A stretch of 64,000 nucleotides of DNA. Origin: a bacterium (lineage in GTDB: Bacteria; Myxococcota; UBA727; JAUIJE01). A program made the position numbers and the translations under genes. Each line of letters opens with the position of its first letter. Position 1 is the first letter of the stretch. The DNA is taken from the NCBI GenBank assembly GCA_030431455.1, contig JAUIJE010000004.1, positions 186,001 to 250,000 of the forward strand. Direction: 5' to 3'. Positions 35,282-52,396 of this stretch are shown piece by piece. The notes under the pieces were generated by a model. It was not told the DNA's origin and ran no database searches. It worked only from the letters and a program-made list of their open reading frames with translations.

Positions 35282-36241
35282 ATGCGCCGTCACTGGTTCC
35301 GGGGCGCGCGACCCCGGCCATTGTTCCTCGGTGTGCTCACATTGTGTCTGGCGTTGCCGGTGGCGGCCCAGGACGAGTACGAAGACGAATACGAGGAAGA
35401 GTACGAAGACAGCGGCAGTGACGGTGCCGAGGACGCGGCCGCGGCGGAATCTGACGCGCCCGCGCCCGCGCCCGCCGACGAGGGCGACGCCCCCGCAGAC
35501 AAGGCCGGCCCGAAAAAGGACGCGCCCGAGACCATCGACACCTTCCTCGTCGGGGCCATCGACCGCGAGCCCAAGCCGGGCACGCCCATCATCGCGAACA
35601 AGAAGTTCCCGATGTCGCTGACCCTCGAGATCTCGGCGATGTTCGACTACTCGTTCTCGGACCGCTTTTTGAATCACGCCGGCGGCCACCTCTCGCTCGG
35701 CTTTCACATCTTTGACTGGCTGGCGGTCGAAGGCTTCGCCGGCGGTCTTTATCCCCAAGAGCTCAACATCACCCGCACCGTGCGGGTGCAAGGCTATTCG
35801 CGCGACTCCAACGAGGAGCCGGCGCTGTCCGGTCTGTGGCAGACCTTCGCCTTCGGCGGCGCCGGTCTGCAGTGGGCCCCGTTCTACGGCAAGCTGAGCT
35901 TCGCCTCCGACTTCCAGGTCGCGTTCCAGTTCTTCTTCTTTGGCGGCGCCGCGGTCGAGGGCATCGCCAAGCCGAGCGGGATCAACGACGGACAGAACGT
36001 CAACAACCGCCGCGACTTCTACCTCGGGGTCGTCGGCGGACAGACCTACAACTACGCCCCGCGGTTCTCGGCGTACTACGGCGGCGGGGTGCGCATCCTC
36101 CCCTGGAAATGGGTGGCCTTGCGCCTCGAGGTGCGGCAGCTCACCGGGCTCAACCCTGGCGTCGAGAACGACCAGTGGAACGAGTTCATCGACATCAACA
36201 ACATGCCGCTGCTGCAAGCCGGCATCAGCTTCTTGCTGTAG
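35282..36241 (+). CDS. Acidic-tailed outer-membrane beta-barrel protein, GltA/GltB-like
   Basis: 319-residue exported protein. Start chosen at the ATG 5 nt after AAGGAGG; a GTG two codons upstream overlaps the ribosome-binding site. Signal peptide to ~residue 30 (ending PVAAQ), then a very acidic segment (31-51: DEYEDEYEEEYED), an Ala/Pro linker, and from ~95 a beta-barrel with strands such as LTLEISAMFDYSFSD, LSLGFHIFDWLAVEGFAGG and an end MPLLQAGISFLL. This matches the myxobacterial outer-membrane barrel type (TIGR04565 style). Followed by a second, similar barrel and a periplasmic TPR protein; this barrel-barrel-TPR order equals Myxococcus gltB-gltA-gltC, whose products form the outer-membrane part of the gliding complex. 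Assignment by context and architecture. Confidence 0.85.
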   Translation: MRRHWFRGARPRPLFLGVLTLCLALPVAAQDEYEDEYEEEYEDSGSDGAEDAAAAESDAPAPAPADEGDAPADKAGPKKDAPETIDTFLVGAIDREPKPGTPIIANKKFPMSLTLEISAMFDYSFSDRFLNHAGGHLSLGFHIFDWLAVEGFAGGLYPQELNITRTVRVQGYSRDSNEEPALSGLWQTFAFGGAGLQWAPFYGKLSFASDFQVAFQFFFFGGAAVEGIAKPSGINDGQNVNNRRDFYLGVVGGQTYNYAPRFSAYYGGGVRILPWKWVALRLEVRQLTGLNPGVENDQWNEFIDINNMPLLQAGISFLL

Positions 36242-36253
36242 GCGGAGGACCAG

Positions 36254-37282
36254 ATGCAACGGAACGAATCTGTGTTGTCGACCGCACGCGTTTGTCTGCT
36301 CGCCGCCGCCGCGGTGGTGTGCGCCGTCCCCGGGGCGGCCGTCGCCCAAGACGACGATGAGTTCGAAGACGAAGACGTCGACGACGCCCTCGGGGCTGAC
36401 GAAGGCGGCGACGAGGGCGCGGACGACGCCGCCACCGACGACGCCGACGACGCCCTCGGCGACGACGAAGACGACGCCCCCGCGGACAGCAGCGGGGACG
36501 CCGCGTCATCGGAGACCACCGGCCCGGCGCCCGCCGAGGGCGGGACCGGGGGCCGCCAACGCATCGAGACCGAAGAGACGATCTACGCGATCCAGAAAAA
36601 GGCGCGGCTCATCGGCGACAGCATCGAGATCACCCCGCTGTTTTTGCAGTCGGTCAACGACCGCTTCGTGTCCCAGACCGGCGGCATGCTCTCGGTGATG
36701 TACAACTTCCGCGAGAACCTCGCGTTCGAACTGAACGTGGGCACCTTCGGCTGGTGGGACAATCCCGACACCTTTTTCCAGACCTTCGCCCCCACGGCGG
36801 CACCCCGGTTCGGCGGGCACTACACCAACACCACCACCGAGCTGCAGCTGCGCGAGCGCCTGCAGCCCGAGTTCGTGAAGCTCTATTGGATCACCTGGCT
36901 GACCACCGCGGACTTCCAATGGGCGCCCGTCACCGGCAAGGTCTCGATCCACGACTTCCAGCTTGGCACCTTTTCGCTCTACCTCTCGGTGGGCGCGGGC
37001 CTGGCGGGCATGCGCAACGAGCAGGCCCCCGACCTCGCCGGCCCCACCGGCCAGCCCTTCATCGGCCCGGTGCAAATCACCGCCACCGTGGGCGGCGGCT
37101 TGCGCTTTTACATCCTCGACTGGCTCGGGATTCGCCTCGAGGTGCGCGACTACGTGCAGCCGCTGGCGTTGCTCGTCTCCGACGGCCCCGACGTGCCCAC
37201 GTCGACGTTCGAGGTGCGCAACACCATCATGGCCCAAATCGGTCTGAGCTTCGTCATTCCCATGCCCTGGGGGCCGCGATGA
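36254..37282 (+). CDS. Acidic-tailed outer-membrane beta-barrel protein, GltA/GltB-like (second)
   Basis: 342 residues, preceded by GGAGG. Signal peptide to ~31 (PGAAVAQ), then a 45-residue highly acidic stretch (33-77, with repeated DDAL elements), linker, and from ~110 a barrel: ITPLFLQSVNDRFVSQTGGM, LSVMYNFRENLAFELNVGTF, LRFYILDWLGIRLEVRDYV, ending AQIGLSFVIPMPWGPR. It is clearly related to the preceding barrel (shared strand near the end and same layout), so the pair is a duplication. Stop and next start overlap (ATGA), coupling it to the TPR protein. In Myxococcus, GltA and GltB are interacting barrels required for gliding; the same role is inferred here. Confidence 0.84.
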   Translation: MQRNESVLSTARVCLLAAAAVVCAVPGAAVAQDDDEFEDEDVDDALGADEGGDEGADDAATDDADDALGDDEDDAPADSSGDAASSETTGPAPAEGGTGGRQRIETEETIYAIQKKARLIGDSIEITPLFLQSVNDRFVSQTGGMLSVMYNFRENLAFELNVGTFGWWDNPDTFFQTFAPTAAPRFGGHYTNTTTELQLRERLQPEFVKLYWITWLTTADFQWAPVTGKVSIHDFQLGTFSLYLSVGAGLAGMRNEQAPDLAGPTGQPFIGPVQITATVGGGLRFYILDWLGIRLEVRDYVQPLALLVSDGPDVPTSTFEVRNTIMAQIGLSFVIPMPWGPR

Positions 37283-38856
37283 ACCGCATTGTCTCCTCTG
37301 TTTCGCTCGTCGCCCTCACCGCCCTGGTCGCGGGGCCCGCGGCCGCGCAGGACATCGAGCGCGCGGTGAGCGCGTTCAAGGCGGGCAACTTCGCCGAGTC
37401 GGCCCCGCTGTTTTTCGCGGTGATCGAGTTCTCCGACGAGGAGAGCGACATCGCCGACGCCGAGTACGGCTTGGCCCGATCCCTCGAGGGTCTCGAGCTG
37501 TACCAGTCGGCGCTCAAAGAATACGGCGACATCGTCCGCGTGGGCTCCGACCACCCCTTCTTCGCGGAGGCGGTCGAAGGCATGCTCAACGTCGCCGAAA
37601 AGCTCGACGACGAGTTCCAAGCCCCCAAGGTCATCAACGCGATGTACGACGACAACCTCTCGGCCATCTCCAAGATGTCCGGTGAGGTCACCCAGCGCAT
37701 CCACTTCATGCTCGGCAAGTACGCCTACAACCGGGGCGACACCCGGGAGGCGCGCGACTTCTTCAAGACGGTCAAAGAGGGGCACAAGTTCTACCCCCAC
37801 GCCCAATACCTGCTCGGGCTCATCCGCCTCGGGGTGGGCCGCGTCGACAACCCCAAGCCCAAATACGACCAGGCCCTCGAGCACTTCGAGAACGTTCGCG
37901 CCGTCATCCCCGACCAGACCAACGACAACGAGCTGCGCCTGCTGCGCGACCTCGCGTCCATGGGTCTGGCCCGGACCGAGTACGAGATCGCCTACCAATA
38001 CGAGGAGGGCGACGAGCGCCGCATCGCCGGGCTCAACCGCTCGATCTTTGAGTACAAGAAGATTCCCCGCTTCTCCGAAGCTTGGGCCGACGGCCTGTTC
38101 GAGCGCGCGTGGGCCCACACCGTGAACAATGAATATGGAAAGGCCCTCGGTGCGCTGCACACCCTGGGGGCGCCGTACTTCTCCGACGTGTTCTACCCCG
38201 AGGCCGACAACCTCCGCGCCATCGTCTACTACTACAACTGCCAATGGGACCGGGTGAACGAGATTGTCGAGGAGACCAAAGCCAAAAACGGCGCCCTCAT
38301 CGAGAAGCTCGAAGCCCTGCTCGAGTCCGACTACGGGTTCGACGAGTGGTACGCGCTGTTGCAGAAGTCCCTCGAGGCCGGTCCCGACACCAAAGAAGAG
38401 GGCCTCATCCCCTACTTGGTGGCGCGGCACATCAGCATCGACCCCCGCTACGTCAAAATGAACAGCTTCCTCACCCAGCTCGACCGCGAAGCGGACGCGT
38501 TCGCCTCCAACAGCGCGCTCGGCGGGGACCTCGGCCGGGAGATGACCACCATCGTGGTCGATACCCGCGACGAGCTGTTGCTCGTCGTCGGCAAGTACGT
38601 GCGCACCAAGCTCGCGGACACCAACACCGAGCTGAGCGACATCAAGACCCGCGCGTCGCTCATCAGCCTCGAGACCAAGACCGCGGAGACCGAGTGGTTG
38701 GAGCAGGGCCGCGCCATCGGTGGCCGGGCCCGCACCCGCTTGCCCCGGCCGTTCGTGCCCGATGACACCTTCCAGTTCTGGTGGTTCGACGACGAGTACT
38801 GGATCGATGAGCTCGGCTACTACGAGTACAAGCTCAAGACCGAGTGCTTCGAATAG
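37279..38856 (+). CDS. gltC: Periplasmic TPR protein, GltC-like
   Basis: 525 residues with signal peptide (MNRIVSSVSLVALTALVAGPAAAQ). The mature protein is almost wholly helical, with TPR-type repeats beginning DIERAVSAFKAGNFAESAPL and continuing YHPHAQ-like units (FYPHAQYLLGLIRLGVGRVD, YEIAYQYEEGDERRIAGL). The C-terminal ~60 residues contain FQFWWFDDEYWIDELGYYEY, an aromatic and acidic cap. Translationally coupled to two barrel genes and followed by a strong terminator, so it closes a three-gene operon. Order and type match Myxococcus GltC, a soluble periplasmic TPR protein that interacts with GltA/GltB; shorter than the Myxococcus protein. Symbol given by architecture and gene order only. 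Confidence 0.75.
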   Translation: MNRIVSSVSLVALTALVAGPAAAQDIERAVSAFKAGNFAESAPLFFAVIEFSDEESDIADAEYGLARSLEGLELYQSALKEYGDIVRVGSDHPFFAEAVEGMLNVAEKLDDEFQAPKVINAMYDDNLSAISKMSGEVTQRIHFMLGKYAYNRGDTREARDFFKTVKEGHKFYPHAQYLLGLIRLGVGRVDNPKPKYDQALEHFENVRAVIPDQTNDNELRLLRDLASMGLARTEYEIAYQYEEGDERRIAGLNRSIFEYKKIPRFSEAWADGLFERAWAHTVNNEYGKALGALHTLGAPYFSDVFYPEADNLRAIVYYYNCQWDRVNEIVEETKAKNGALIEKLEALLESDYGFDEWYALLQKSLEAGPDTKEEGLIPYLVARHISIDPRYVKMNSFLTQLDREADAFASNSALGGDLGREMTTIVVDTRDELLLVVGKYVRTKLADTNTELSDIKTRASLISLETKTAETEWLEQGRAIGGRARTRLPRPFVPDDTFQFWWFDDEYWIDELGYYEYKLKTECFE

Positions 38857-38871
38857 GCCCCGGTCCACACC

Positions 38872-38906
38872 AAAAAAGGCGCCCCTCCCGGGGCGCCTTT
38901 TTTGTG
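38872..38906. terminator. Bidirectional terminator between the barrel operon and the ECF operon
   Basis: 14-bp perfect stem AAAAAAGGCGCCCC / GGGGCGCCTTTTTT with a TCCC loop. A-run on one side and T-run on the other give a canonical intrinsic terminator in both directions, as needed between two convergent operons. Confidence 0.93.
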
Positions 38907-38913
38907 GCCTCGC

Positions 38914-39651
38914 TCAGCCGCCATCGGGTGCGGCGCGGAGCAGGTCGGCCAGCGCCCGGTACCGATGCCGCAGGCCCGCGGGCAGCGACGGCCAATCCAC
39001 CGCCCACAGATGGGTGGCCGCGGCCGTCCGGTCGCCGGCCTCGACCGCGAGTTCGGCGAGGTTGAGCCGGGCGTCGGTGGCGAGCGCCCCTTGCGGGTAG
39101 GTGGCCAAATAGTGTCCAAAGGCTTTTTGCGCGGCCTGTCGTCGACCATCGGCCCGCGCGGCCTCGGCGCGTTCGTAGAGGCGAAGCTGTGGCCCCAGCG
39201 TGGCCGACGGCGCCGCCGGCTGGGGGGGCGGCGCCGGCTCCGCTGGCGTGGGGCGCGGGGCGGGGGGACGCGCCACGGGGGCGGGGGTCGCGGCGGCATC
39301 GGGCGACGCGGGGCCGGCATCGCGCCCGGCGGCCACGGTCTCGGCGGCGGGGGGGGCGGCCACGCGGGCCGCGGCCACCACCGGGGCGGGGGGGGCCGCG
39401 GGCCGCGGCCTGGACAATAGGGCATAGCCGACGCCCAGCCCCGCGAGCAGCGCGACGGTCCCGGTCACCCCCAGCAAGAGCCAGCGCGGGCCCGTCACCG
39501 AGGGGCCGGCCCCGATCGTGACCCGGTGATCGATGCGCGTCCACAGCGCGTCGAGGGCGGCCGCCTCCGCGCCGGTGGCGGCCGCGTTCGCGAGGTCGGC
39601 GCGGGCTTCGTCGAGGGCGCGGGCCAACCCGGGGGGCCAGGGTTCGCTCAT
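38914..39651 (-). CDS. Anti-sigma-factor-like membrane protein with TPR-like periplasmic tail
   Basis: 245 residues. The first ~45 are cytosolic, helical and acidic (LARALDEARADLANAAATGA); one transmembrane helix follows at ~57-78 (LLLGVTGTVALLAGLGVGYA). A long Ala/Pro-rich periplasmic linker leads to a small helical TPR-like domain (~165-245: RRQAAQKAFGHYLATYPQGA). A small N-terminal cytosolic part next to a membrane helix, encoded directly after an ECF sigma gene with an ATGA overlap, is the usual form of an anti-sigma factor. The zinc-binding HxxxCxxC motif of ZAS-type anti-sigmas is absent, so the call is by context. The tail may sense envelope status. Confidence 0.72.
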   Translation of the reverse strand: MSEPWPPGLARALDEARADLANAAATGAEAAALDALWTRIDHRVTIGAGPSVTGPRWLLLGVTGTVALLAGLGVGYALLSRPRPAAPPAPVVAAARVAAPPAAETVAAGRDAGPASPDAAATPAPVARPPAPRPTPAEPAPPPQPAAPSATLGPQLRLYERAEAARADGRRQAAQKAFGHYLATYPQGALATDARLNLAELAVEAGDRTAAATHLWAVDWPSLPAGLRHRYRALADLLRAAPDGG

Positions 39652-40232
39652 GGTGCGCCCCCGGGGTCCGCTTGCCACAGTTGGGCCAGGCGCCGCCGCC
39701 CGCGCGAGAGCAACGAGTGCACCGCGCCGGAGGAGGTGCCCATCAGGGCCGCGGTCTCGGGCACCGACAGCTGCTCCAGCTCGACAAGGGTCACCGCTTC
39801 CCGTTGCTTGTCCGGCAGCGCGGCCAGACAGCGGGCGAGCTTGCGCCGGCGCTCTTTTCGCTCCACCGGGTGCGCCGGCTCGACGTGGAGGTCGAGCGCT
39901 TGACCCGCGGCTTGTTCGCGCTGGGCGGTGCGCTGGGCGCGCCGGCGGTGCGACCGAATGACATTGCGCATCACCCCGTGCAGGTAGCCGCCCGGGTTGT
40001 GGTCCGGGTCGATGTCGTCGAGCCGCCGCTGGGCGATCAAGAACACGTCCTGCACCACGTCGTCCGCGGACACGCCCGGCCCACACAGCCGTTGGGCCTG
40101 GCGGCGCAGCAAGGGCGCGTGGGCCCGGTACAAGCCCTCGAGGGTCAGTGCGGCCCGGCGGGCGACCTCGGCGAGAAAGATCAACACCTGGTCGAGGTAG
40201 CACAGCCGGAAAGCGGCGGCACCGCCGGTCAC
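39648..40232 (-). CDS. ECF-type RNA polymerase sigma factor
   Basis: 194 residues. The sigma2 region contains the DNA-recognition and core-binding block VSADDVVQDVFLIAQRRLDD and GYLHGVMRNVIRSHRRR. The sigma4 region holds a helix-turn-helix: PDKQREAVTLVELEQLSVPE, then TAALMGTSSGAVHSLLSRGR. It is of the RpoE-like ECF class. Start and stop overlap with both neighbours (ATGA on each side): an upstream lipoprotein gene and a downstream anti-sigma-like gene. This three-gene unit lies between the two parts of the gliding-type locus; targets unknown, but the shared promoter element upstream of the barrel genes would be a natural candidate to test. Confidence 0.93.
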   Translation of the reverse strand: MTGGAAAFRLCYLDQVLIFLAEVARRAALTLEGLYRAHAPLLRRQAQRLCGPGVSADDVVQDVFLIAQRRLDDIDPDHNPGGYLHGVMRNVIRSHRRRAQRTAQREQAAGQALDLHVEPAHPVERKERRRKLARCLAALPDKQREAVTLVELEQLSVPETAALMGTSSGAVHSLLSRGRRRLAQLWQADPGGAP

Positions 40233-41353
40233 CGCAGCTGACCTCGCAACGATTGAACCATCAAGCGTTCGACCTCTTCACAGTCGGAGGGGGCGATGGT
40301 GACGGACTTTTCCGCGAGCATCACGCCGCCCGCGTCCTCGACCGTGACCTGGACCGCCACACTCATTGCATCGGCATTGTGCGACCGTGCCCGCACCCGC
40401 AACTCATCGTGTCCGGCGGGGTCGAGAAATGCTTCGACCTCGCGGCGCAGCCGGGATTCGTCGAGGCAGTTTGCGTCGTCGGCGATGTCGAACGCCCATC
40501 GTGAGGTCGCCGACTCGGCGGGATCGGGCGCGGCGGTCACAGGAGGTGCGGCGGTCAGAGGAGGTGCGGGGGGCGCGGTGTGGGTCTTCGTGGCCGGCCG
40601 CGTAGCCCGCAGCACCGCGTGGGCGTGTTCGAGCACAACCTCGGCCAACAGCTCGTCGACTTCGCCGGTCTGGAGCACGGTGTCGGCCACCATCACCGGG
40701 ACCGTGCCGCCGAAGATGATAAGGCTGGCCAAGCCCGTCGCCACCGCCGTGCCCCACCCGCCGAGCACCAGCGGGTGGGACAGCGCGGTGAGCGAGTCGG
40801 CGCCGGTGAAACTCAGGGCGGCGTAGGTCACCGACCCGACCGCGCCCATCACCGCGCCGCCCACGACAAAACCCGTGGCCAAGAGCAGGACAACATGGCC
40901 CGCCATGGTGAGGTTGTCCGGATTCGGAAACCCGCTTTCGCGGACGGTCTTGACCGTCTCGCCCGACGGCAGGGTCGACTCGATGGTGATGGTGAGGTCC
41001 CGACGATAGGTGAAATCGTCGTCGGGCGGCGCAGCGGCGTGCAGGGTGATCTTGGTCAGCAAGCGCGTCGCATCAGGCCGCGGGGGGCCGAGGTGGGTTT
41101 GTAACCGGTGCGCCACTGACGCCCGCAGCGCCTCCTGGTCACGGACAAAAAGCGGCGAACTGTTGCCGGCCTCGACCAGCACCTCCCCGGGCCCGATGCG
41201 GTGGCCGCTGGTCCCCGCTTGCAGGGGCTCGGGGGCGTCGACTTCGATGTCGCCGATCCACGCGCGCGGGGTGTAGCAGCCGGTGCAGGCCAGCAAGGCG
41301 AGGGCCGCGAAGGCGAGCAGAGAGCGGGGCAAGCGGAAAGCAAAACGACACAT
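40229..41353 (-). CDS. Lipoprotein co-transcribed with an ECF sigma factor
   Basis: 374 residues. AAGGAG precedes the ATG by 7 nt. The lipobox is TGC-type (LLACTGCYTPR; Cys26). An N-terminal beta-rich region (~30-130) is followed by a hydrophobic span with two probable membrane or amphipathic helices (~140-230: GHVVLLLATGFVVGGAVMGA, LVLGGWGTAVATGLASLIIF), an Ala/Thr/Pro linker and a C-terminal beta domain (~285-374: WAFDIADDANCLDESRL, APSDCEEVERLMVQSL), a type common in myxobacterial signalling proteins. Its stop overlaps the sigma factor ATG. A lipoprotein that heads a sigma/anti-sigma operon may be the envelope sensor; that is inference. Confidence 0.8.
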   Translation of the reverse strand: MCRFAFRLPRSLLAFAALALLACTGCYTPRAWIGDIEVDAPEPLQAGTSGHRIGPGEVLVEAGNSSPLFVRDQEALRASVAHRLQTHLGPPRPDATRLLTKITLHAAAPPDDDFTYRRDLTITIESTLPSGETVKTVRESGFPNPDNLTMAGHVVLLLATGFVVGGAVMGAVGSVTYAALSFTGADSLTALSHPLVLGGWGTAVATGLASLIIFGGTVPVMVADTVLQTGEVDELLAEVVLEHAHAVLRATRPATKTHTAPPAPPLTAAPPVTAAPDPAESATSRWAFDIADDANCLDESRLRREVEAFLDPAGHDELRVRARSHNADAMSVAVQVTVEDAGGVMLAEKSVTIAPSDCEEVERLMVQSLRGQLR

Positions 41354-41490
41354 GACGAACTCCTTTTGCCCTTCCTTGTCCGGCCGGGCCCAGATCCTGT
41401 CATGCGGCGGATCAGATCTGCCCCACGGCCGCATTTGGCCGCTTTGGTGGACATTTCGCGTAGGCCGGGTCCCCGTGTCAGAATTGGCAA

Positions 41491-42363
41491 ATGCGCATGT
41501 TGGTTTGGCTTTGGGTGGGGTTGTGGGCGCCGGGGGCGCTCGCCCAGGCCCCCGCGCCGGCCCCGGCGGAAGCGGCGCCGCCGCGCGCGTTGCGGGTGGC
41601 GGTGATGGACTTCGAGGTCAGTGACATTGACCCCACCGTCGCGCGCATCACGTCCGAGTCGTTGCTGCAGGAGATTCGCAAGCTCGAACGGGTCAGCGTC
41701 ATCAGCCTCGACGAGGTCCGGGCGATGTTGTCCCTCGAGGAGCAACGTCTGATGGCGGGCTGTGAAGCCTCGAGCTGTCTGGCCGACATCGCGGGCGCGC
41801 TCGGCGCCGACGTGGTCGTGATCGGGAGCTTGGCCAAGGTGGGCGACGAGCACGTCATCGGGCTGCGCGCCATCGACCAGAACGAGGGCGCGGCCTTGGG
41901 CAGCTACTCCGCGCGGCTGACCCCGGCGGGCGGCGAGGAGTTTCTCGCCGCGGTGGGGCCGGCGGTGGCGGAGATCTTTCCCGGGCGGGGCCTGCGCGAA
42001 GGCCAGACCCGCGGGGTGAGCGATGAAGTGGCATTGCGCCTTCACCCCCCGCCGCTCGACCCCTGGACGGTCTACAGCGCGGGCGGGGTGGGGGCGGGCT
42101 TCGCGGCGTTGGCCGTCGTCGGGCTCGGGCTCAACCTGCTGTTCGGGGGGGTGATGAGCGCGGCGGTGGCGGACGCGGGCCCCGACGGGGGCAGCACGAT
42201 CGACAAGCGACAGCTCGACGCGCTGTTCACCGCCACCAACGTCTCCCTGGGCGCGGCCGCGGTCGCGGGGGCGGGGGCGTTGGCCGGGTTTGGCGGCGCG
42301 GCGTTGCTGGCGTTGTTCACCGATTGGGACGGCTCGCGCGCGGCCAGCGCACAACCGGAATAG
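41491..42363 (+). CDS. CsgG-like / FlgO-like exported protein with two C-terminal membrane helices
   Basis: 290 residues with a signal peptide ending GALAQ. The ~35-160 region is an alpha/beta domain: LRVAVMDFEVSDIDPTVARI, SVISLDEVRAML, ADIAGALGADVVVIGSLAKV. It resembles the CsgG/FlgO-type fold (adaptor domain of outer-membrane assemblies) found widely in myxobacterial genomes. Two hydrophobic helices follow (~195-225 and ~245-272). A CAGAAT box 6 nt before the ATG and no Shine-Dalgarno suggest a leaderless transcript. It lies divergent from the ECF operon and 345 bp before the large TPR gene. Role unknown. Confidence 0.82.
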   Translation: MRMLVWLWVGLWAPGALAQAPAPAPAEAAPPRALRVAVMDFEVSDIDPTVARITSESLLQEIRKLERVSVISLDEVRAMLSLEEQRLMAGCEASSCLADIAGALGADVVVIGSLAKVGDEHVIGLRAIDQNEGAALGSYSARLTPAGGEEFLAAVGPAVAEIFPGRGLREGQTRGVSDEVALRLHPPPLDPWTVYSAGGVGAGFAALAVVGLGLNLLFGGVMSAAVADAGPDGGSTIDKRQLDALFTATNVSLGAAAVAGAGALAGFGGAALLALFTDWDGSRAASAQPE

Positions 42364-42707
42364 GTGGCGCCCCATCGGTCGGTCGCCCGACGACCAGCGG
42401 CCGACGGCCTGGCGCAAATGCGCCACACCGCTGAAACGACGCTGAAGCGCACGCGGGCATCGACCGCGCCCTGGGGCGCGGCGCGCCGGTCGGATTGTGC
42501 TGTGCGATCAAACGCTTAGGGGGCCGGGAATCCCGTGTGGTCGTCGACGGTTGCGCGGTGGGGTGGCAGGAGAGATGTAGGATGTTGTCGGACACCCGAC
42601 GGGCACCCCGCTTGCTCAAGCCCCTCATATTGCCTACGTGTGGTGCGTCACACGCGCACAGCACGCGATCCCGACCCTTTTGCTCTTCCTTCCGAGGCTT
42701 CCGCGCA
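42364..42707. other. 344-bp intergenic region upstream of the GltD-like gene
   Basis: No supported gene. A perfect 6-bp inverted repeat GGCGCA-AA-TGCGCC lies at 42411-42424, 48 bases after the preceding stop, without a T-run. The remainder should hold the promoter of the large TPR gene but I see no confident -35/-10 pair. GAGG occurs about 10 nt before the chosen ATG. An in-frame extension to 42495 exists but would place ~70 unlikely residues before the signal peptide. Confidence 0.6.
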
Positions 42708-45700: not shown

Positions 45701-46205
45701 CACCACCAAGAAGGGCAAGAAGGGCATGAAGGAGATCAAGGACAACCTTGATGCCAAGCTCAAGCAGCGCGACATCATCGGCAAGAAGTACTTCGATGTG
45801 TTGAGCTACGGCAACGGCGAGTGGGGTGTGGCCGGTCTGTACCGCGCGGCCGAGGTGCTGCTCGAGTACGTCGACGCCCTCCGCAACGCCCCCGACCCGC
45901 CCGCGTTGGCCAACAACTTCGACGCCCTCGACATCTTCCGGGCCGAGCTCGACAACAAGCTCCTCCCCGTCGAGGACCAGGCGATTCAAGCCCTCGAGTC
46001 GGCGCTGCAAAAAGCGTTCGAGCTCGGCATCTACTCGCCCTACACCCTGGCCATCGAGGACCGCCTGCGCACGTTCAAGCCGTCGGCGTTCGGCGAGGTG
46101 CACGGGTTGCCCTTCTACGATGCGTCGGGCACGAGCGATAAGGGCGACAACAAACAGGCCGCGGACGACAAGGACGCGGACAAGAAAAAGACGGCCCGTC
46201 GGTAA
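42708..46205 (+). CDS. gltD: Large periplasmic TPR protein, GltD (AgmU)-like
   Basis: 1165 residues. Signal peptide about 1-37 (RRLRYLFLFFLFFAVGAPLA, ending AAHA). The mature protein begins with an extraordinary polybasic tract (residues 38-55, 17 of 18 Lys/Arg) and then an acidic linker. From ~110 to ~1100 it is a long helical array of TPR-type repeats, e.g. ALKNYKVVLKDYPEYPRLDE, KKKAGIKNYSKLIRQFPNSE, AVESFKTYLEKFKDAKDTPD. The last ~25 residues are again very charged. Size, export and TPR make-up, and the following TPR lipoprotein, small protein and FHA/TonB-like gene, correspond to Myxococcus gltD-E-F-G, where GltD/AgmU is a periplasmic scaffold of the gliding complex. 15 nt to the next gene. 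Symbol assigned on architecture and order. Confidence 0.82.
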   Translation: MQHPVTRRLRYLFLFFLFFAVGAPLALDAEPVPAAHAKKKRKKRKKKKKKKKSKKASTADDKAEDDDGKKSAGGSVPEKEPEKEEELRTTGPADIKAPVGEKKVKKKDLTAEADKKRDESIAEIASVLPKVKGGQKGELVFRLAELYWAKSKYIYQTEFEDFDAAYQKWVDTGRQGKEPTLEGYTKKSEAYKKQALKNYKVVLKDYPEYPRLDEVLYIMAYNEYQAGKKKAGIKNYSKLIRQFPNSEYVADSYLALGEHYFTANDLSRATKAYTKAYDKGREINKPITYRYAEYKLAWCDYNAENYDKALTKFKNVVEESEKAAQGDKDGAQLKGEALNDMVLTYSQLNEVDKAYKYFKKKAGGEKSYHLMSKLSGVYESQGKFDNQIKTLRRLINIDPDNASAPDYQARIVSAYSKLGKRDKVRKEITRLVELYRPGSPWWNKNKDNEMATERALVVAEQRMRELVTDYHRYADKHKTYDDYELARDLYGQYLQAFPTSEQAYTLNFYYAEILWDLGQWRDAAEQYDAVVARDAKGRYTRDCAYNAILAWEKIVANEPKPVRNKDGLLVKNKKKQKGKIANKKVKLEKVEKNKEYKPEDIPEPEQKLADACDAYVRVVPEELSKKDPKLEEELIVVKFKSAYTYHKYFHFDQAAERFGELIGRWPDNEYARRGADSILDSYAAREKWKPLEKWSREFAAVKPLMKDKDFAKSVFKFMQGASFKSIQEDYNQGLALEKKEKKKTPEVVAIYTQSAERFEGFVKEFPDSEFAPIAMFNAMDIYDGANKLDLAIRATNHLLEKYPKEIGKDQLGEINAERKCRLNLVRYHEKIADYENSAKYALEYFEKYKDDDKAPDVLYNSGIFYLGLGDTKRAVESFKTYLEKFKDAKDTPDVYLRMAAVYEDAEEWVTASGLYDGFEQKYGKKATKEQIMNSRYKTALLQEKAGRADQSLATCEDILKRYKKDVLKKSDVGQLAGGYCAFKVLESEWEAYKQIKIATTKKGKKGMKEIKDNLDAKLKQRDIIGKKYFDVLSYGNGEWGVAGLYRAAEVLLEYVDALRNAPDPPALANNFDALDIFRAELDNKLLPVEDQAIQALESALQKAFELGIYSPYTLAIEDRLRTFKPSAFGEVHGLPFYDASGTSDKGDNKQAADDKDADKKKTARR

Positions 46206-46220
46206 GCGAAGGTGAAGAAC

Positions 46221-47468
46221 ATGAAGTCCACATCCATGGTTCGAATCGTGTGTTCGCTCGGCGTGGCCGGCGGTCTGTTGATGTCGGTGGCGTGCGGGAG
46301 CGACGAGTCCGCGAAGAAGCCCGACAAGCCGGTGAAGCAAGAGGTCAAAAAGCCGCCCACCAAGGAAGAGGCGGTGGCCGCCCTCATCGGCGACGCCAAG
46401 AAGCTGATGGCCCGGGCGGACTACGCCGCGGCCAAAGGCAAGTACGAGGCGGCGCTGCAAAAAGACCCGGGCAACTTCGACGCGCGCTTCGGCGTGGCCC
46501 AAGCCCAAGTGGGGCTCAAGGACACCGCCAACGCCGAGGCCGCCCTGGTCGAGCTGCGCAAAGAAAAGCCTGACCACAAGGGCGTGTTGTTTGCGCTCGG
46601 TGACCTGTACTCGATTACGGAGCAGCACAAAAAAGCCATCGAGCTGTTCCAAGAGCAGCTCAAGAGCGACGAGTACAACACCGAGATGCTCAACCGCCTC
46701 ATCGTCGCCTACCGCCTGAGCGGCGACTTCCCCAAGGCCGAGGAGAACATCACCAAGCTGCTCTCCCGCGACCCCGACAACGGCGATGCCCTGAAGAACC
46801 TCTCGTTGATTTATTACGACCAAGGCAAATTCGCCCTGTCCGAGACCATCGCCATCAACAGCCTCAAGCTCGACGACAAAGACGCGGCCCTTTACAACAA
46901 CCGCGGCATGATCCGGGTCAAGAAGGGGCGCTACCCCGAGGCGATGAGCTTCTTCCGCAAGTCGGTCGAGCTCGATCCCAATCTCATTGCCCCGCACCTC
47001 AACATCGGCGCCATCGCCCTGCGCTACCGCGACTACGACACCGCGGCCAAACACTACGGCGACGCGGTGAAGCTCGACTCGGGCCACCCCGCGGCCAACC
47101 TCGGCCTCGGTCTTGCCCTCTCGGGCCAAGAAAAAGGCGACGAGGCGGTGACACAACTGGAGCGCGCGCTCAAGCTCGACCCCAAGGCCAACGTGGCCAT
47201 GGCCGAGCTCGCCCGCGTGTACAAACACCAAAAGAACGAGCTGCAGCCGGCCAAGGACTGGGCGGAGAAGTACATCGCGGCCGAAGGCAGCGTGGCCGAC
47301 GACCACCCCATCAAGGTGTTGCTGTCCAACATCGAGATCGAACTCGAGCAGGAGCGCATGCTCAAGGAGACCCAGGCCGAGGCGGCCAACGCGGCGGCCA
47401 ACGCGCCGACCGAGGGCGCGGCCCCCGCCGAAGGGGCGCCCGCCGAAGGGACGCCCCCCGCGTCCTGA
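46221..47468 (+). CDS. gltE: TPR lipoprotein, GltE (AglT)-like
   Basis: 415 residues. The ATG is preceded at 8 nt by GAAGG; an in-frame GTG three codons earlier is less likely. Lipobox SVACGSDES (Cys28). A Lys/Glu-rich tether is followed by about nine TPR units from ~residue 50 to 365: YAAAKGKYEAALQKDPGNFD, AEENITKLLSRDPDNGDALK, AMSFFRKSVELDPNLIAPHL, DEAVTQLERALKLDPKANVA. The end is an Ala/Pro/Glu-rich tail. It starts 15 nt after the GltD-like gene. The same pair is found in Myxococcus, where GltE is an outer-membrane lipoprotein with TPRs needed for adventurous gliding. Probably acts as a docking subunit between periplasm and outer membrane. Confidence 0.82.
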   Translation: MKSTSMVRIVCSLGVAGGLLMSVACGSDESAKKPDKPVKQEVKKPPTKEEAVAALIGDAKKLMARADYAAAKGKYEAALQKDPGNFDARFGVAQAQVGLKDTANAEAALVELRKEKPDHKGVLFALGDLYSITEQHKKAIELFQEQLKSDEYNTEMLNRLIVAYRLSGDFPKAEENITKLLSRDPDNGDALKNLSLIYYDQGKFALSETIAINSLKLDDKDAALYNNRGMIRVKKGRYPEAMSFFRKSVELDPNLIAPHLNIGAIALRYRDYDTAAKHYGDAVKLDSGHPAANLGLGLALSGQEKGDEAVTQLERALKLDPKANVAMAELARVYKHQKNELQPAKDWAEKYIAAEGSVADDHPIKVLLSNIEIELEQERMLKETQAEAANAAANAPTEGAAPAEGAPAEGTPPAS

Positions 47469-47484
47469 TCGAGCGGTTCGCGGC

Positions 47485-47512
47485 TTTGTCCGCGCGCGAG
47501 AGTTGCTAGACT
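47485..47512 (+). promoter_or_regulatory. Possible internal promoter upstream of the first CglF-like gene
   Basis: TTTGTC, 16 bp, TAGACT, located in the 68-bp gap between the GltE-like and CglF-like genes and followed by GGAGG. The spacing is slightly short and the -35 is weak. It would allow extra expression of the small protein. Confidence 0.3.
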
Positions 47513-47536
47513 GTTCAGGTTGTTTGGAGGTTTGTG

Positions 47537-47803
47537 ATGAAACGGATCGTGACGGTGATGTTCGGCGTGGCTTTGTTTGTGTCGGGGGCGGCCATTGCCC
47601 AAGACAACGTGGTCGAAGAGCCCGACCGCGTCGAGTACAACAAGAAGACGGTCATCGATTTCTCCGACGTGAACATCGAAGGTGAGCTCACCAAGCCGGA
47701 GGGCTCCTACATCAAGAACCGCAAACGCACGAAGTTCCGCAATCTCATTGAGCTGCGCGGCAACTTCCGCCCCGAGATGCGCCGGTCGGTGTCCAAGCTC
47801 TGA
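47537..47803 (+). CDS. cglF: Small exported protein, CglF (GltF)-like
   Basis: 88 residues with a signal peptide (MKRIVTVMFGVALFVSGAAIAQ) and ~66 mature residues that are basic and rich in Arg/Lys. The core is KKTVIDFSDVNIEGEL, SYIKNRKRTKFRNLIELRGN and the end FRPEMRRSVSKL. GGAGG lies 6 nt before the ATG. Its place, directly after a TPR lipoprotein and before an FHA/TonB-like gene, is that of Myxococcus cglF/gltF, a small protein needed for gliding complex function. A paralogue is encoded ~900 bp downstream. It is followed by a strong terminator, so transcription of the downstream genes needs read-through or another promoter. Confidence 0.72.
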   Translation: MKRIVTVMFGVALFVSGAAIAQDNVVEEPDRVEYNKKTVIDFSDVNIEGELTKPEGSYIKNRKRTKFRNLIELRGNFRPEMRRSVSKL

Positions 47804-47826
47804 TCGGTTTTTGTCGTCGAGTGAAG

Positions 47827-47852
47827 CGGGCCGCACATGCGGCCCGTTTTTA
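47827..47852 (+). terminator. Rho-independent terminator after the first CglF-like gene
   Basis: 8-bp perfect stem CGGGCCGC / GCGGCCCG, loop ACAT, tail TTTTTA. Located 24 bases after the stop. It separates the gltD-gltE-cglF unit from the tail-anchored gene. Confidence 0.9.
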
Positions 47853-47903
47853 CTTGGGGCCCACGACGCGTTCAGCCCCGTTTGGGGGCCAAGGGGTTTT
47901 GCG

Positions 47904-48650
47904 GTGTTGCACGAAAGTTGGGTCGCGGCCGGTGACGACGACCAGCTGGCGCTGTTTTCGCCCGAGGGGGTGCTGCCCCAGGCCGCGGCCCCCCTCACCG
48001 GACAGGACTTGATGCGGGGGCTGCTCGACCGGGCGCAGGTGCGGGTGGCCGAAGCGCACCTCGACCAGCCGCTGCCCGCGGGGGGCCAGTTCGTGCCCGC
48101 CCTCGCGGTGGCCGAGGACGCGGCCGCGCTCGCGGGCTGTGCCCCGAAGACCGTGCGCGGGGGGGCGGTGGCCCGGCTCGACGACGAGACCGATCGCGAG
48201 CGCCTGGAGCGGTTGTATCTCGACGACCGGGTGACGTTGTTCGATTACGAGCCCCGCGCCCTCGATGCGCTCGCGGCCCTCGCGGGCCTGTTGGTGTTCG
48301 ACCCCGACCAGACCACCGCCGGCGGCTACGTCAAAGCCGTGCCCGCCGCGGACCCGACGGTGCGGCCCGCCTTCGCCGAGGTGCTGCGGCGGGGCGCGCC
48401 CGCCCCGTGGCGGGTCTCGGACCTGCCCGCGGGCCTGCGCGATCGGGTGGTGCGCCTGACCGGCGTGCGCCTGTCGGAGCGGAACCACGTGGTGCCCGCC
48501 GAGCACGGGGCCATGCGCGCGCTCGACGCCTACGAGGGGCCACGTCACCTCGCCGACCAGGGAGAGCCCGCGCGCTGGCCGTGGTGGGCCGCCCTCGGCG
48601 CGGCCGCGATCGGGCTGCTTGTGTTTTTGTGGTTGCGCGCTGGGCTGTGA
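47904..48650 (+). CDS. Unknown tail-anchored membrane protein inside the gliding-type locus
   Basis: 248 residues, GTG start with AAGGGG 7 nt upstream; no N-terminal signal. Residues 1-222 are soluble and, given the C-terminal hydrophobic helix (about 225-245, RWPWWAALGAAAIGLLVFLW) followed by a short tail, should face the cytosol. I do not recognise the soluble domain; it is rich in Asp/Arg/Ala and has clear strand-helix patterning (FVPALAVAEDAAALAGC, RLERLYLDDRVTLFDYEP, LDALAALAGLLVFDPDQT). A longer frame upstream overlaps the terminator and the cglF gene and is unlikely. It sits between two paralogous CglF-like genes and directly before the GltG-like gene, so it is a good candidate for an undescribed inner-membrane component or regulator of the same machine. 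Confidence 0.75.
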   Translation: MLHESWVAAGDDDQLALFSPEGVLPQAAAPLTGQDLMRGLLDRAQVRVAEAHLDQPLPAGGQFVPALAVAEDAAALAGCAPKTVRGGAVARLDDETDRERLERLYLDDRVTLFDYEPRALDALAALAGLLVFDPDQTTAGGYVKAVPAADPTVRPAFAEVLRRGAPAPWRVSDLPAGLRDRVVRLTGVRLSERNHVVPAEHGAMRALDAYEGPRHLADQGEPARWPWWAALGAAAIGLLVFLWLRAGL

Positions 48651-48695
48651 GGAACCTTCGCCCCGGCCCCGCGGTCTCAGGCCCAGGAGGTGCAC

Positions 48696-48968
48696 ATGCA
48701 CAGATGGGTCATCGCCGCGGTCGTCGGGTTGTTGTCCATGGGGGCGGCCGCGCAGCGAGCGCCCGCGGCCGCGCGGGACGAGCCCGAGGCCGAGGTCCGC
48801 TACCTGCGCAAAACGATCGTGCCGTTTGACCCGGCCGAGGTGCGCGGGGACGTCCACGGTCCCGGGGGGGACACGATCCGCGCGCGACCGACGGTCAAGT
48901 TCGCGCCCCGGCTGCCCCTGCGGCTCAGTTTCCGACGAGAAATGCTCTCGTCCGTCGGGGAGCTGTGA
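48696..48968 (+). CDS. Second CglF-like small exported protein
   Basis: 90 residues with signal peptide (MHRWVIAAVVGLLSMGAAAQ). AGGAGG lies 5 nt before this ATG; an in-frame GTG two codons earlier overlaps the site. The mature part aligns with the first CglF-like protein along its whole length: RKTIVPFDPAEVRGDV against KKTVIDFSDVNIEGEL, then TVKFAPRLPLRLSFRREM against RTKFRNLIELRGNFRPEM, and SSVGEL against RSVSKL at the end. It is therefore a paralogue. It precedes the GltG-like gene. Two copies may form a hetero-oligomer or serve different states; no data here decide. Confidence 0.78.
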   Translation: MHRWVIAAVVGLLSMGAAAQRAPAAARDEPEAEVRYLRKTIVPFDPAEVRGDVHGPGGDTIRARPTVKFAPRLPLRLSFRREMLSSVGEL

Positions 48969-49003
48969 TCCGGGTCGCGATGACGCGTGGCGTCAAGGTC
49001 TCG

Positions 49004-49022
49004 ATCGGGAACTTTTCCCGAT
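49004..49022. promoter_or_regulatory. Perfect inverted repeat upstream of the GltG-like gene
   Basis: ATCGGGAA-CTT-TTCCCGAT: 8-bp perfect arms, 3-nt spacer, in the 158-bp gap before the FHA/TonB-like gene and 35 bases after the preceding stop. There is no T-run, so it is not a typical terminator; a dimeric regulator site is possible. Shortly downstream GTCGA-TTTTG-TCGAC is a second, shorter inverted repeat. Confidence 0.4.
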
Positions 49023-49126
49023 GGGTCATGTCGATTTTGTCGACGACCAGAGCGCGGATGGGCCTTTGCCTGCCGCATTTGGTGGGGTAACGGTTTTTGC
49101 GGCGCCCCGCTGAGAAAGGCCGAGAC

Positions 49127-51184
49127 ATGGAAGCAGATTTCTCCATCAGTCTGACCATCGATCTCCCCAGCGGGGAGACCAAGACCCAGGAGTTCACCAG
49201 CGGGGAGCCGATCATGATCGGCTCGGGCGGCTCGGCCCACGTGAAGATTGTCGACGACGAAGTGTCTTCGCTCCACTGCATGATCAAGCCCAACAACCAG
49301 GGCGGCCTGGTGGTGCTCGACCTCGGGTCCGACGAGGGCACCTTCGTCAACGGCAAGGAAATCACCGGTGATCGGGTGCTCGCGGACAGCGAGGTGATCA
49401 AGATCGGCAACACCCGCATCGCGGTGCACTTCGGCGGCGACATGCTCGCGCCCACCGTGCCGATCCGCAGCGCCCAAGCCCAGCCCGCCAAAGACGCGCT
49501 GGCCGACACCCACCTCGATCTCGCCACCACCACCCGGCAGGACGCGCCCCCCGACGTGACCGCCCCCGAGCCCCCCAGCGTGCTCGAGGAGCGCGCCACC
49601 CGCGCGGAGGCCAAAGCCAAAGCGGAGAAAGCCAAGCAGCCCCCCGCGCCTCCCGTCGACGACGACCGCACCCTCAAGCAGGAAGCGGCTCCGGCGGTGA
49701 CCGAGGAGCCGGACTTTGTGCCCGCCCCGCCGCCGGAATCGAAAAAGAGCAAGCGCAAAGGACCGCCCATGCCCAAGAAGGGCGCCAATGCTCCTGCATC
49801 ATCCTCTGCCCAACCTGACACTGCCCAACCTGGGGGCCATCACGTGAAAAAAGAAGCCCACGTCCACTCCGGCGACCTGTCGACCGACCTCAACAACGAG
49901 GAAAAGGCGTCCGACAAGCAGCACCTCGAAGTCACCATGCTTTGGGGCGGCTCGGTGATGGGGGTGCAACGCATCGCCGGCTCCGGGGAGATCACCATCG
50001 GCGACAGCCCGGCGGCGACCTTCCAGGTGTCCGACAAGTCGATCCCCTCGAGCGCCTTCGCTCTGGTCAAGTTTGGCGGGGGCGTGGCCACCGTCAACAC
50101 CGCCGGGGGCATGGAGCTCGAGGTCGACGGCAAGAAGGCCTCCGGGAGCCACACCCTCGAGGTGGGCCAAAAAGCGGTGGTCCGGTTCGGCGCGCTCGAG
50201 TTCGTGGTGCAGTACTCCAAGCGGTACCTGCCCATCGCGGTCAGCCTGTCGGAGACGATGGACTACCTCGCGACCAAGATCACGGCCATCGCCCTGATTC
50301 TCCAGACCGCGATGATCATCGCGTTCTTGTTCACCCCGCACATCGATGAGTCCGACGAGGACGACCTGATGGCCAACCTCAACGAGTTCCAGCAGCTCAT
50401 TCTCACTCCCCCGGAGAAGAAGAAAGAGAAGAAGCAGGACCTCTCGGGGAAAAAGGGTGCCAAGCACAAAGACGACGAAGGTCTGTTCGGCAAGAAAGAC
50501 AAGCCGAAGGAAGACAAAGCCGCGTCGAAGAAAGGCGCGCCCACCGTCGACAAAGACAAACGTGAAGAGGACCGCAAGATCGCGTTCGACACCCTGGCCG
50601 CCCTCGGGTTGTCCAGTGACAATGCGGCCGTCTCCAATGTGTTTGGACCGGGTGGTCTCGGCACCGGCATCAACAACGCCCTCGGCGGCCTCAAAGGCGC
50701 CTCGATGGGTGACGCCGGCGGCGCGGGCGGTCTCGGCTCCCGCGGCACCGGCGCGGGCGGCGGCGGCAACGCCCTCGGCATCGGCGGCATCGGCTCTGGC
50801 ACCGGTCGGGGTTCGGGCGGCCGCGGCGGCATCGACCTCGGGGGACGCGGCAAAGGGCGCACCAAGATCAAGCCCGGCAAGGTCACGTTCAAAGGGTCAC
50901 TGTCGCGCGAAGAGATCGAGCGGGTGCTCCGCCGCGTGAAGAACCAAATCAAACACTGCTACGACAAAGAGGTCGCCAAAGACCCCAACCTCGCGGGCAA
51001 GGTGGTGATGCAGTGGGTGATCACCGGCACCGGGTCGGTGACGTCGGCGAAGGCCGCGCAGAACACCCTCGGCAACGCCGCGGTCGGCGCGTGCGTGACC
51101 CGGGTGATCGCCCGCCTGCGCTTCCCCAAACCGCGGGGTGGTGGACAGGTGCTCGTCACCTATCCCTACGTGTTCAGTTTGTGA
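49127..51184 (+). CDS. gltG: FHA / AgmX-PglI (TonB-like) transmembrane protein, GltG-like
   Basis: 685 residues spanning the inner membrane. N-terminal FHA-type domain (~8-105): IGSGGSAHVKIVDDEVSSLH then LGSDEGTFVNGKEI. The usual Gly-Arg is Gly-Ser (32-33) and the usual Asn before GT is Glu70, so phosphothreonine binding may be lost. A Pro/Ala/Lys linker precedes a second FHA-like beta-sandwich (~265-365: LEVTMLWGGSVMGVQRI). The membrane helix is ~384-402. A periplasmic Lys/Glu linker (EKKKEKKQDLSGKKGAKHK) and a ~80-residue Gly-rich segment lead to the AgmX/PglI C-terminal TonB-like domain (~590-685: IERVLRRVKNQIKHCYD, LRFPKPRGGGQVLVTYPYVF). This is the GltG architecture, linking cytosol and outer envelope in gliding. 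A terminator follows. Confidence 0.88.
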   Translation: MEADFSISLTIDLPSGETKTQEFTSGEPIMIGSGGSAHVKIVDDEVSSLHCMIKPNNQGGLVVLDLGSDEGTFVNGKEITGDRVLADSEVIKIGNTRIAVHFGGDMLAPTVPIRSAQAQPAKDALADTHLDLATTTRQDAPPDVTAPEPPSVLEERATRAEAKAKAEKAKQPPAPPVDDDRTLKQEAAPAVTEEPDFVPAPPPESKKSKRKGPPMPKKGANAPASSSAQPDTAQPGGHHVKKEAHVHSGDLSTDLNNEEKASDKQHLEVTMLWGGSVMGVQRIAGSGEITIGDSPAATFQVSDKSIPSSAFALVKFGGGVATVNTAGGMELEVDGKKASGSHTLEVGQKAVVRFGALEFVVQYSKRYLPIAVSLSETMDYLATKITAIALILQTAMIIAFLFTPHIDESDEDDLMANLNEFQQLILTPPEKKKEKKQDLSGKKGAKHKDDEGLFGKKDKPKEDKAASKKGAPTVDKDKREEDRKIAFDTLAALGLSSDNAAVSNVFGPGGLGTGINNALGGLKGASMGDAGGAGGLGSRGTGAGGGGNALGIGGIGSGTGRGSGGRGGIDLGGRGKGRTKIKPGKVTFKGSLSREEIERVLRRVKNQIKHCYDKEVAKDPNLAGKVVMQWVITGTGSVTSAKAAQNTLGNAAVGACVTRVIARLRFPKPRGGGQVLVTYPYVFSL

Positions 51185-51208
51185 TGAGCTGACCTCGACC
51201 GAACAAGA

Positions 51209-51236
51209 AGGGCGCCCTTCGGGGCGTCTTTTTTGT
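51209..51236 (+). terminator. Rho-independent terminator of the GltG-like gene
   Basis: 7-bp stem GGCGCCC / GGGCGTC (one G-U pair) with a stable TTCG tetraloop and a TTTTTT tail, beginning 25 bases after the stop. Confidence 0.9.
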
Positions 51237-51267
51237 GTCGACGAGACCCCCGGGGTGCGCCGAAAAT

Positions 51268-51314
51268 CGATTGGAATTGGCGCTTTACCGGCGGGGTTTC
51301 GTCGGTTAGCGTCC
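51268..51314 (+). promoter_or_regulatory. Promoter-like element shared with the GltA/B-like operon (copy 2)
   Basis: Ungapped partner of 35206-35252, 39 of 47 bases identical, and again exactly 30 nt from the ATG. Core TTTACC (51284-51289) - 17 bp - TAGCGT (51307-51312). It follows the GltG terminator, so the GltH-like gene has its own promoter that is probably regulated with the distant barrel operon. Confidence 0.6.
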
Positions 51315-51343
51315 CGCGACCCTCAAGGCAGATGGAGGAGCGG

Positions 51344-52396
51344 ATGCGGCGTCGCGTGCTCGAGCCTGGTTGTTTTCTCTGGATGAGCCTGACCCTCAGC
51401 GTGGCGGTGGCCGCGCTGCCGGCGGCGGCCCAGGACGACGAGTTCGAAGAGGACGACGACATCACCGACGACGGTGGTGATGACGCACTCGCGGACGACG
51501 CCGGCGCCGAAGACGAGGCGTCCGACGACATCGGCGACGCCCTCGACGAGGGCGACGGCGAAGGGGCGATCGAGAAGAAGGAAGAGGTCGATCCCGAGAT
51601 TCCCGAGGGCGGCGAGACCGTCGGCGAGTCCCTGGGCGGCGCGACCAACTTCGTGTTCCCCACCGGCTTTTACATCTCGTCCGACCTCGGCGGCTTCGTG
51701 CGCTTTGGCGGGTATGGTGACGCCACCGGCGAAGGCGCGTGTTTCCGCTGCGTGCCGCGCCTGACCTCGGACTTCCAGCCCTGGGTCGGGGTCAACATCG
51801 GTTACGACATCATCCCCAACTTCGGCGTCGAAGCGACCCTGGGCACCGGCTTCATCGGCAACGCCGCCCCCCGCGGCTACAGCCAACCCAACTTGGAGAC
51901 CGCGCCCCCGGACCTCGCCAACGCGCGGGGCGTCGTGGTGCCCGAGCACATGGCCATCACCATGCTCAACGTCGCCCTCACCGGGTCTTGGTACTTCCTC
52001 GACCGCCTCGCCATCCAGGGCAAGGTGTTCGTCGGCGGCGCGTTCCTCACCCCCGACCCCGACCCCGCCCGGCTGAACTTCGTGCGCGGCCTGACCTGCG
52101 ACGCCGGCTTCTGGGGCGCGCCGTCGCCCGATCAGACCTGCGGCGGCGAGTTTTCCGGGGACTTCGGGGCCCTCGGGGGCTTCGGCCTCGGCCTGCGCTA
52201 CGCGACGTTGTTGCCCGGGATGGTCATCGGCTTCGACGTCAACAGCTACGCGGTCTGGAGCATGAACGTCGCCACCGCCCACACCGGCGGGGTGAGCGCG
52301 TTCGGCACGTATCTGCCGCCGCCGATTCCCCTCGGCTTTGCCCTGCCGATCATCCCGGCGGTGAGCTTTGCCCCGGTCATCAAGTACGTCTTCTAA
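51344..52396 (+). CDS. Acidic-tailed outer-membrane beta-barrel protein, GltH-like
   Basis: 350 residues. The ATG 5 nt after GGAGG is used; an ATG four codons upstream overlaps the Shine-Dalgarno. Signal peptide to ~30 (LPAAAQ), then a 43-residue acidic segment (31-73: DDEFEEDDDITDDGGDDAL). From ~95 a beta-barrel follows: FYISSDLGGFVRFGGYGD, WVGVNIGYDIIPNFGVEATL, LTGSWYFLDRLAIQGKVFVG, ending VSFAPVIKYVF. Three Cys pairs (CFRC, TCDAGF, TCGG) could give extracellular disulfides. Layout and acidic tail match the two barrels at 35-37 kb. Position directly after a GltG-like gene equals Myxococcus gltH, an outer-membrane barrel of the gliding complex. Confidence 0.83.
   Translation: MRRRVLEPGCFLWMSLTLSVAVAALPAAAQDDEFEEDDDITDDGGDDALADDAGAEDEASDDIGDALDEGDGEGAIEKKEEVDPEIPEGGETVGESLGGATNFVFPTGFYISSDLGGFVRFGGYGDATGEGACFRCVPRLTSDFQPWVGVNIGYDIIPNFGVEATLGTGFIGNAAPRGYSQPNLETAPPDLANARGVVVPEHMAITMLNVALTGSWYFLDRLAIQGKVFVGGAFLTPDPDPARLNFVRGLTCDAGFWGAPSPDQTCGGEFSGDFGALGGFGLGLRYATLLPGMVIGFDVNSYAVWSMNVATAHTGGVSAFGTYLPPPIPLGFALPIIPAVSFAPVIKYVF

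Follow-up and report, generated by a model that had tools for sequence, protein, structure and literature searches.

Does this locus hold the gliding (Glt) machinery of its organism, gathered into one place, or a different member of the same family of envelope machines? The first-pass annotation took the first view: it read the two paralogous barrels, the TPR proteins, the FHA/TonB-like protein and the third barrel as two adjoining Glt modules, in either an ancestral or a secondarily merged arrangement. Nfs is the sister machine of Glt, and is known for wrapping the spore coat. We found that the locus is very probably an nfsA-H cluster, whose products would form the envelope-spanning transducer in a surface transport machine of the Agl-Nfs kind, a paralogue of the gliding Glt complex. 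Here "the window" means the whole 64,000-nucleotide stretch of DNA that was analysed (C28:186001-250000 of a 7.72 Mb genome in 28 contigs).

All of the genes named in the first-pass annotation are present and intact where it had placed them, and their products resemble GltC, D, E, F, G and H (Table 1). The separators are likewise those it described, namely a set of minus-strand TPR, ECF sigma factor and lipoprotein genes and a single DUF2380/CsgG-like gene, but a 248-aa ORF between F and G was left off its list. The eight genes A-H thus lie in order in one region, all on the plus strand, interrupted by four genes between C and D and by one ORF between F and G. Reading frames are open across the locus genes (35.3-52.4 kb), with coding-like codon usage (GC3 0.85-0.92).

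Table 1. Predicted genes of the locus, with probable assignments and family matches (positions are those of the window).
Feature	Position	Strand	Evidence
NfsA-like outer-membrane barrel, acidic N-terminal region, first of two paralogues	35282..36241 (starts 35276/35360)	+	TIGR04565 73.6 bits
NfsB-like outer-membrane barrel, acidic N-terminal region, second paralogue	36254..37282 (starts 36254/36314)	+	TIGR04565 71 bits
NfsC, GltC-like periplasmic TPR protein	37279..38856	+	NF033756 228 bits (cutoff 450); C tree
Lineage-specific C-D insert, three genes	38914..41434	-	Pfam sigma70 r2/r4 for ECF sigma
TPR/membrane protein of C-D insert	38914-39651	-	
ECF sigma factor of C-D insert	39648-40232	-	Pfam sigma70 r2/r4
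Lipoprotein of C-D insert	40229-41434	-	
DUF2380/CsgG-like exported protein, inserted, outside Nfs set	41491..42363	+	PF11684 E 0.001
NfsD, GltD-like large TPR protein, signal peptide, 1149-1236 aa	42708..46205	+	D tree, AU test
NfsE, GltE-like TPR lipoprotein	46212..47468	+	NF033758 120 bits (cutoff 225)
NfsF, GltF/CglF-like small basic exported protein	47537..47803	+	NF033764 74 bits (cutoff 90)
248-aa ORF, C-terminal hydrophobic segment, between F and G	47904..48650	+	ORF call
NfsG: FHA domain, FHA-like sandwich, one TM helix, Gly/Pro-rich linker, TonB-like tail	49127..51184	+	NF033760 333 bits (cutoff 650); NF033768 104 bits (cutoff 40)
NfsH, GltH/CglE-like barrel, acidic N-terminal region	51383..52396	+	NF033755 52 bits (cutoff 70)

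Both of the first two barrels exceed the 60-bit cutoff of TIGR04565 (OMP_myx_plus). The domain layout of the G product draws on the family matches and on an AlphaFold model with a low overall pLDDT of 64 and a disordered linker. All of the listed PDB fold matches of this model are FHA domains; its TonB-like tail found no support in the fold search, and is predicted from NF033768, the model of the AgmX/PglI C-terminal domain (the GltJ/GltG tail). No partner for GltI, GltJ or GltK was found in the window cluster (GltI was sought by ORF size, and GltJ by the GltJ/GltG tail, which was seen in the G gene only).

We next considered what the family matches say about identity. The C, E, F, G and H products do match Glt/Cgl families best, as the first-pass annotation anticipated, yet they fall short of every Glt equivalog cutoff (Table 1). 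Their scores against the Glt models (C/E/F/G 228/120/74/333 bits) are close to those of the M. xanthus Nfs proteins (210/121/70/338) and unlike those of a second set of genes on contig C1 of the same genome (518/243/100/507). With NF033764, for example, M. xanthus NfsF scores 70 bits and GltF 145. NCBIfam yielded no model for Nfs, including with the M. xanthus Nfs proteins as queries. The best named family is therefore misleading here, and since the curated models seen cover Glt only, Nfs clusters come to resemble gliding loci; the present assignment corrects a likely misannotation of this sort.

The same genome encodes three further Glt/Nfs-type clusters, on C1, C8 and C4. The C1 cluster (C1:268000-303200; L033, L034) runs without a break through two barrels, GltC, GltD, GltE, GltF, GltG, a 778-aa protein, GltH, GltI and GltJ, and its C, E, F and H products pass the curated Glt cutoffs. 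Its GltI is a giant of about 4000 aa, and the gene for the 778-aa protein between G and H is an extra one. The C8 cluster (C8:472000-484000, L038) contains C, D, E, R, Q, S and G genes and is of the G4 type; its own R, Q and S motor genes lie inside it, which is not so in the M. xanthus G4 cluster. The C4 cluster (E, D, C, barrel and G genes) is of the G5 type. As the first-pass annotation had noted, GltI, GltJ and AglRQS are missing from the window, and our search of the whole genome located all of them: gltI and gltJ adjoin the C1 cluster, and aglRQS is on C18.

A complete Myxococcus genome (G137) also holds four clusters, which by chromosome order and protein lengths are the glt, nfs, G4 and G5 clusters of PMC3169522; over the nfs region it shares 97% identity with the record named Myxococcus xanthus AM003. 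These four pair one-to-one with the four found here, the window being the partner of nfs, and the pairing recurs across the phylum. M. xanthus GltD matches C1 better (603 bits, against 281 for the window), whereas NfsD matches the window better (531 bits, against 343 for the C1 GltD); the window and C1 D proteins are 31% identical to each other. The other M. xanthus queries likewise prefer the window over C1 (NfsC 208 vs 104 bits, NfsE 127 vs 64, NfsF 90 vs 50, NfsG 200 vs 114). Identity between the window and M. xanthus Nfs proteins is low, 24-51% by component, with NfsF at 51%. The M. xanthus ORF in the NfsB position has the second window barrel as its best match, though weakly. NfsA orthologues hold the first position in three relatives from the same order (L072, L075, L145), and NfsH orthologues hold the same place as in the window in L072, L075 and L160.

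Phylogenetic trees gave the same pairing, the window falling with its Nfs counterpart at bootstrap 100 in each of the three. In the D tree, built from 44 clusters, there were four clades: the window fell with NfsD in a clade of 13 rows (support 100/100), and 12 Glt rows formed a separate one (100/99). Holding the window D protein with Glt cost 325 log units and was rejected by the AU test (p-AU 2e-68). The window was also placed in the Nfs clade of the C tree (12 rows, 100/98) and of the G tree (10 rows, 100/99). The Nfs assignment draws on trees for C, D and G, and on best match and position for A, B, E, F and H. The homology to Glt machinery claimed at first is real, but the genes are orthologous to nfsA-H instead, as judged by the pairing and the three trees.

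The trees also bear on the age of the two machines. Because both the Glt and the Nfs clades include members of the window's order together with at least five families related to the window only at the phylum level, the split between Glt and Nfs appears to be old and deep in the phylum. In PMC3858216 the split is instead given as a duplication that took place recently, on a terminal branch. Nfs-type clusters were found in many families of the phylum, uncultured lineages included. Within the window's order, members of one family (G173-G180, f3) have very small genomes (0.3-1.8 Mb) and gave no GltG-type match at the threshold used.

We then asked whether the neighbouring position of A-C and D-H is unusual, as the first-pass annotation supposed. 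It is not: the nfsA-H genes were already known to occupy a single region (PMC3169522, PMC3858216), so a neighbouring layout is to be expected of an nfs counterpart, and joined genes are also the usual glt layout in the sampled genomes outside the Myxococcaceae. Nfs-type loci in named records were found by searching with 11 aligned D proteins of the Nfs type; a contig scan with the single window D protein as the query gave no match. In 62 of the 65 assessable loci, C ends no more than 446 bp from D. The three other records are a split relative (L159), one in which C adjoins D but is typed as Glt (L237), and L184. One record, titled Comamonas sp. KCTC 72670 (L207), shows 89-93% identity to Myxococcus in its nfs region and is probably mislabelled or contaminated. 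Within the window's order, four relatives carry uninterrupted nfs clusters (L070, L072, L075, L077), and two have A-B-C apart from D-E (L145/L066 and L146/L063).

Joined Glt genes were seen in this genome, in relatives from its order, in G011 (where one barrel was found), G057, G162 and G192, and in Anaeromyxobacter, for which grouped G1 and G2 homologues have been described (PMC3169522). A Glt D gene without an adjoining C was seen in Myxococcus and G065. This answers the evolutionary question: since Glt and Nfs clusters alike widely show the joined A-H layout, the simplest reading makes that layout ancestral in each case and the split gltA-C/gltD-J arrangement of Myxococcus derived. The locus is not a merged Glt locus, and no secondary merger is involved. 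The window is interrupted rather than newly compact, and if anything represents a step towards splitting, its insertion falling at the same C/D boundary where Myxococcus Glt is split. The four-gene insert is unrelated to the machine and lineage-specific: no such insert was present in the other Nfs loci examined, and its lipoprotein had no match in 38 other genomes. The inserted DUF2380/CsgG-like gene has a 33% identical relative elsewhere in the same genome. The 248-aa ORF between F and G has no Pfam or NCBIfam match; it was not seen in most related clusters, whose F-G gap is mostly under about 300 bp. The C-D insert and this ORF could alter expression of the cluster.

The AglRQS orthologue on C18 is the triad that best matches M. 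xanthus AglR, AglQ and AglS (245, 162 and 194 aa). There, the genes that follow aglR-aglQ-aglS encode an outer-membrane barrel, next a short Wza-type exporter and last a Wzc kinase (L041:1515-8917, minus strand). The same succession, on one strand, recurs in the window's order (L041, L257, L259, L260, L261), except that other ORFs intervene before the more distant exporter and kinase of L261; a truncated record (L256) ends after the barrel. This linkage was scored with models built from verified proteins of the order, and no barrel, Wza-type or Wzc-type genes adjoining aglRQS were found in 14 other genomes or in M. xanthus. Two Wza-type proteins were found in the source genome, as no more than candidates for ExoA of the spore-coat pathway; Nfs of M. 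xanthus is needed for assembling the spore coat with the Exo polymer. Among the three M. xanthus exporters the best match was the one beside the G4 cluster (L058; 163 bits, vs 112 and 73), the position of WzaB/WzpB (MXAN_1915/1916; PMC9603273). The Wzp-Wza-Wzc-like exporter genes behind aglRQS suggest a polysaccharide as the cargo, by guilt by association and with the members of the order counting as one event.

Starting from the gene content, the orthology to Nfs, the domain layout of NfsG and the motor genes, we can propose interactions, movement and cargo by analogy with the Agl-Nfs machine of M. xanthus (PMC3858216). In this model, AglRQS, the proton-driven motor encoded on C18, would act at the inner membrane on NfsG, engaging its only TM helix. 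Motion would then pass along NfsG, by way of the flexible linker in the periplasm and the TonB-like tail, and reach the TPR proteins (NfsC, D and E). The outer-membrane barrels (NfsA, B and H), to which the TPR proteins would be connected, may grip a polysaccharide on the surface and carry it along the cell.

How do other explanations fare? That the locus is the organism's gliding machinery in a merged arrangement is extremely improbable. It draws on the Glt/Cgl names of the best families and on the existence of AglRQS, GltI and GltJ in the genome; against it stand the missed cutoffs, the misleading nature of those names, the better scores of the complete A-J Glt cluster on C1, and the trees and AU test that put the window outside the Glt clade. 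Three more readings were considered and rejected: a second machine for gliding, two glt loci that had recently merged, and a chance collection of TPR and FHA genes. It is very unlikely, too, that we are looking at a decaying or misassembled nfs locus, broken between C and D by the insertion. The absence of the insert from nearly all other Nfs loci and the distance between C and D-E in two relatives from the order would fit such a history, but every frame is open and coding-like in its codon usage, the stretch has no N bases, and the D protein is 55-61% identical to those of order relatives.

A further possibility refines the nfsA-H assignment rather than excluding it, and to this we give not quite even credence: a machine of the Nfs lineage may perform a task outside sporulation, e.g. 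handling capsule or slime polysaccharide on vegetative cells. The spread of Nfs-type clusters through many families, uncultured lineages among them, and the polysaccharide exporter behind aglRQS in this order both point this way, but it is with the motor that the exporter is linked, and this motor could also serve Glt. The deep split between Glt and Nfs makes Nfs action outside sporulation testable. More tentatively, and as somewhat less likely than not, we propose that Glt and Nfs parted before the main lineages of the phylum, that Nfs is much older than, and not tied to, the formation of myxospores, and that the cargo of an Agl-driven machine in this order is a polysaccharide exported by Wzp-Wza-Wzc, with exporter genes placed directly behind those of the motor.

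The nfsA-H cluster of the window can finally be set beside the known systems. It shares with the M. xanthus Nfs complex the gene set, the order A-B-C-D-E-F-G-H in one region without I, J or K, a common clade in the C, D and G trees and the same sub-cutoff Glt-model scores, and differs from it in the four-gene C-D insert, the F-G ORF and the low identity of the components (24-51%). With the M. xanthus Glt complex (gltA-C plus gltD-J) it has in common paralogous proteins, the motor family and a GltG-type FHA/TM/TonB-like transducer, but it belongs to a different clade and lacks GltI, GltJ and GltK, the true Glt orthologues being on C1. The Glt-like G4 (MXAN_1922) and G5 (MXAN_1327) clusters share the C-D-E-G core; they form separate clades, and their types are represented in this genome on C8, where the G4 type has its own R-Q-S motor genes, and on C4.
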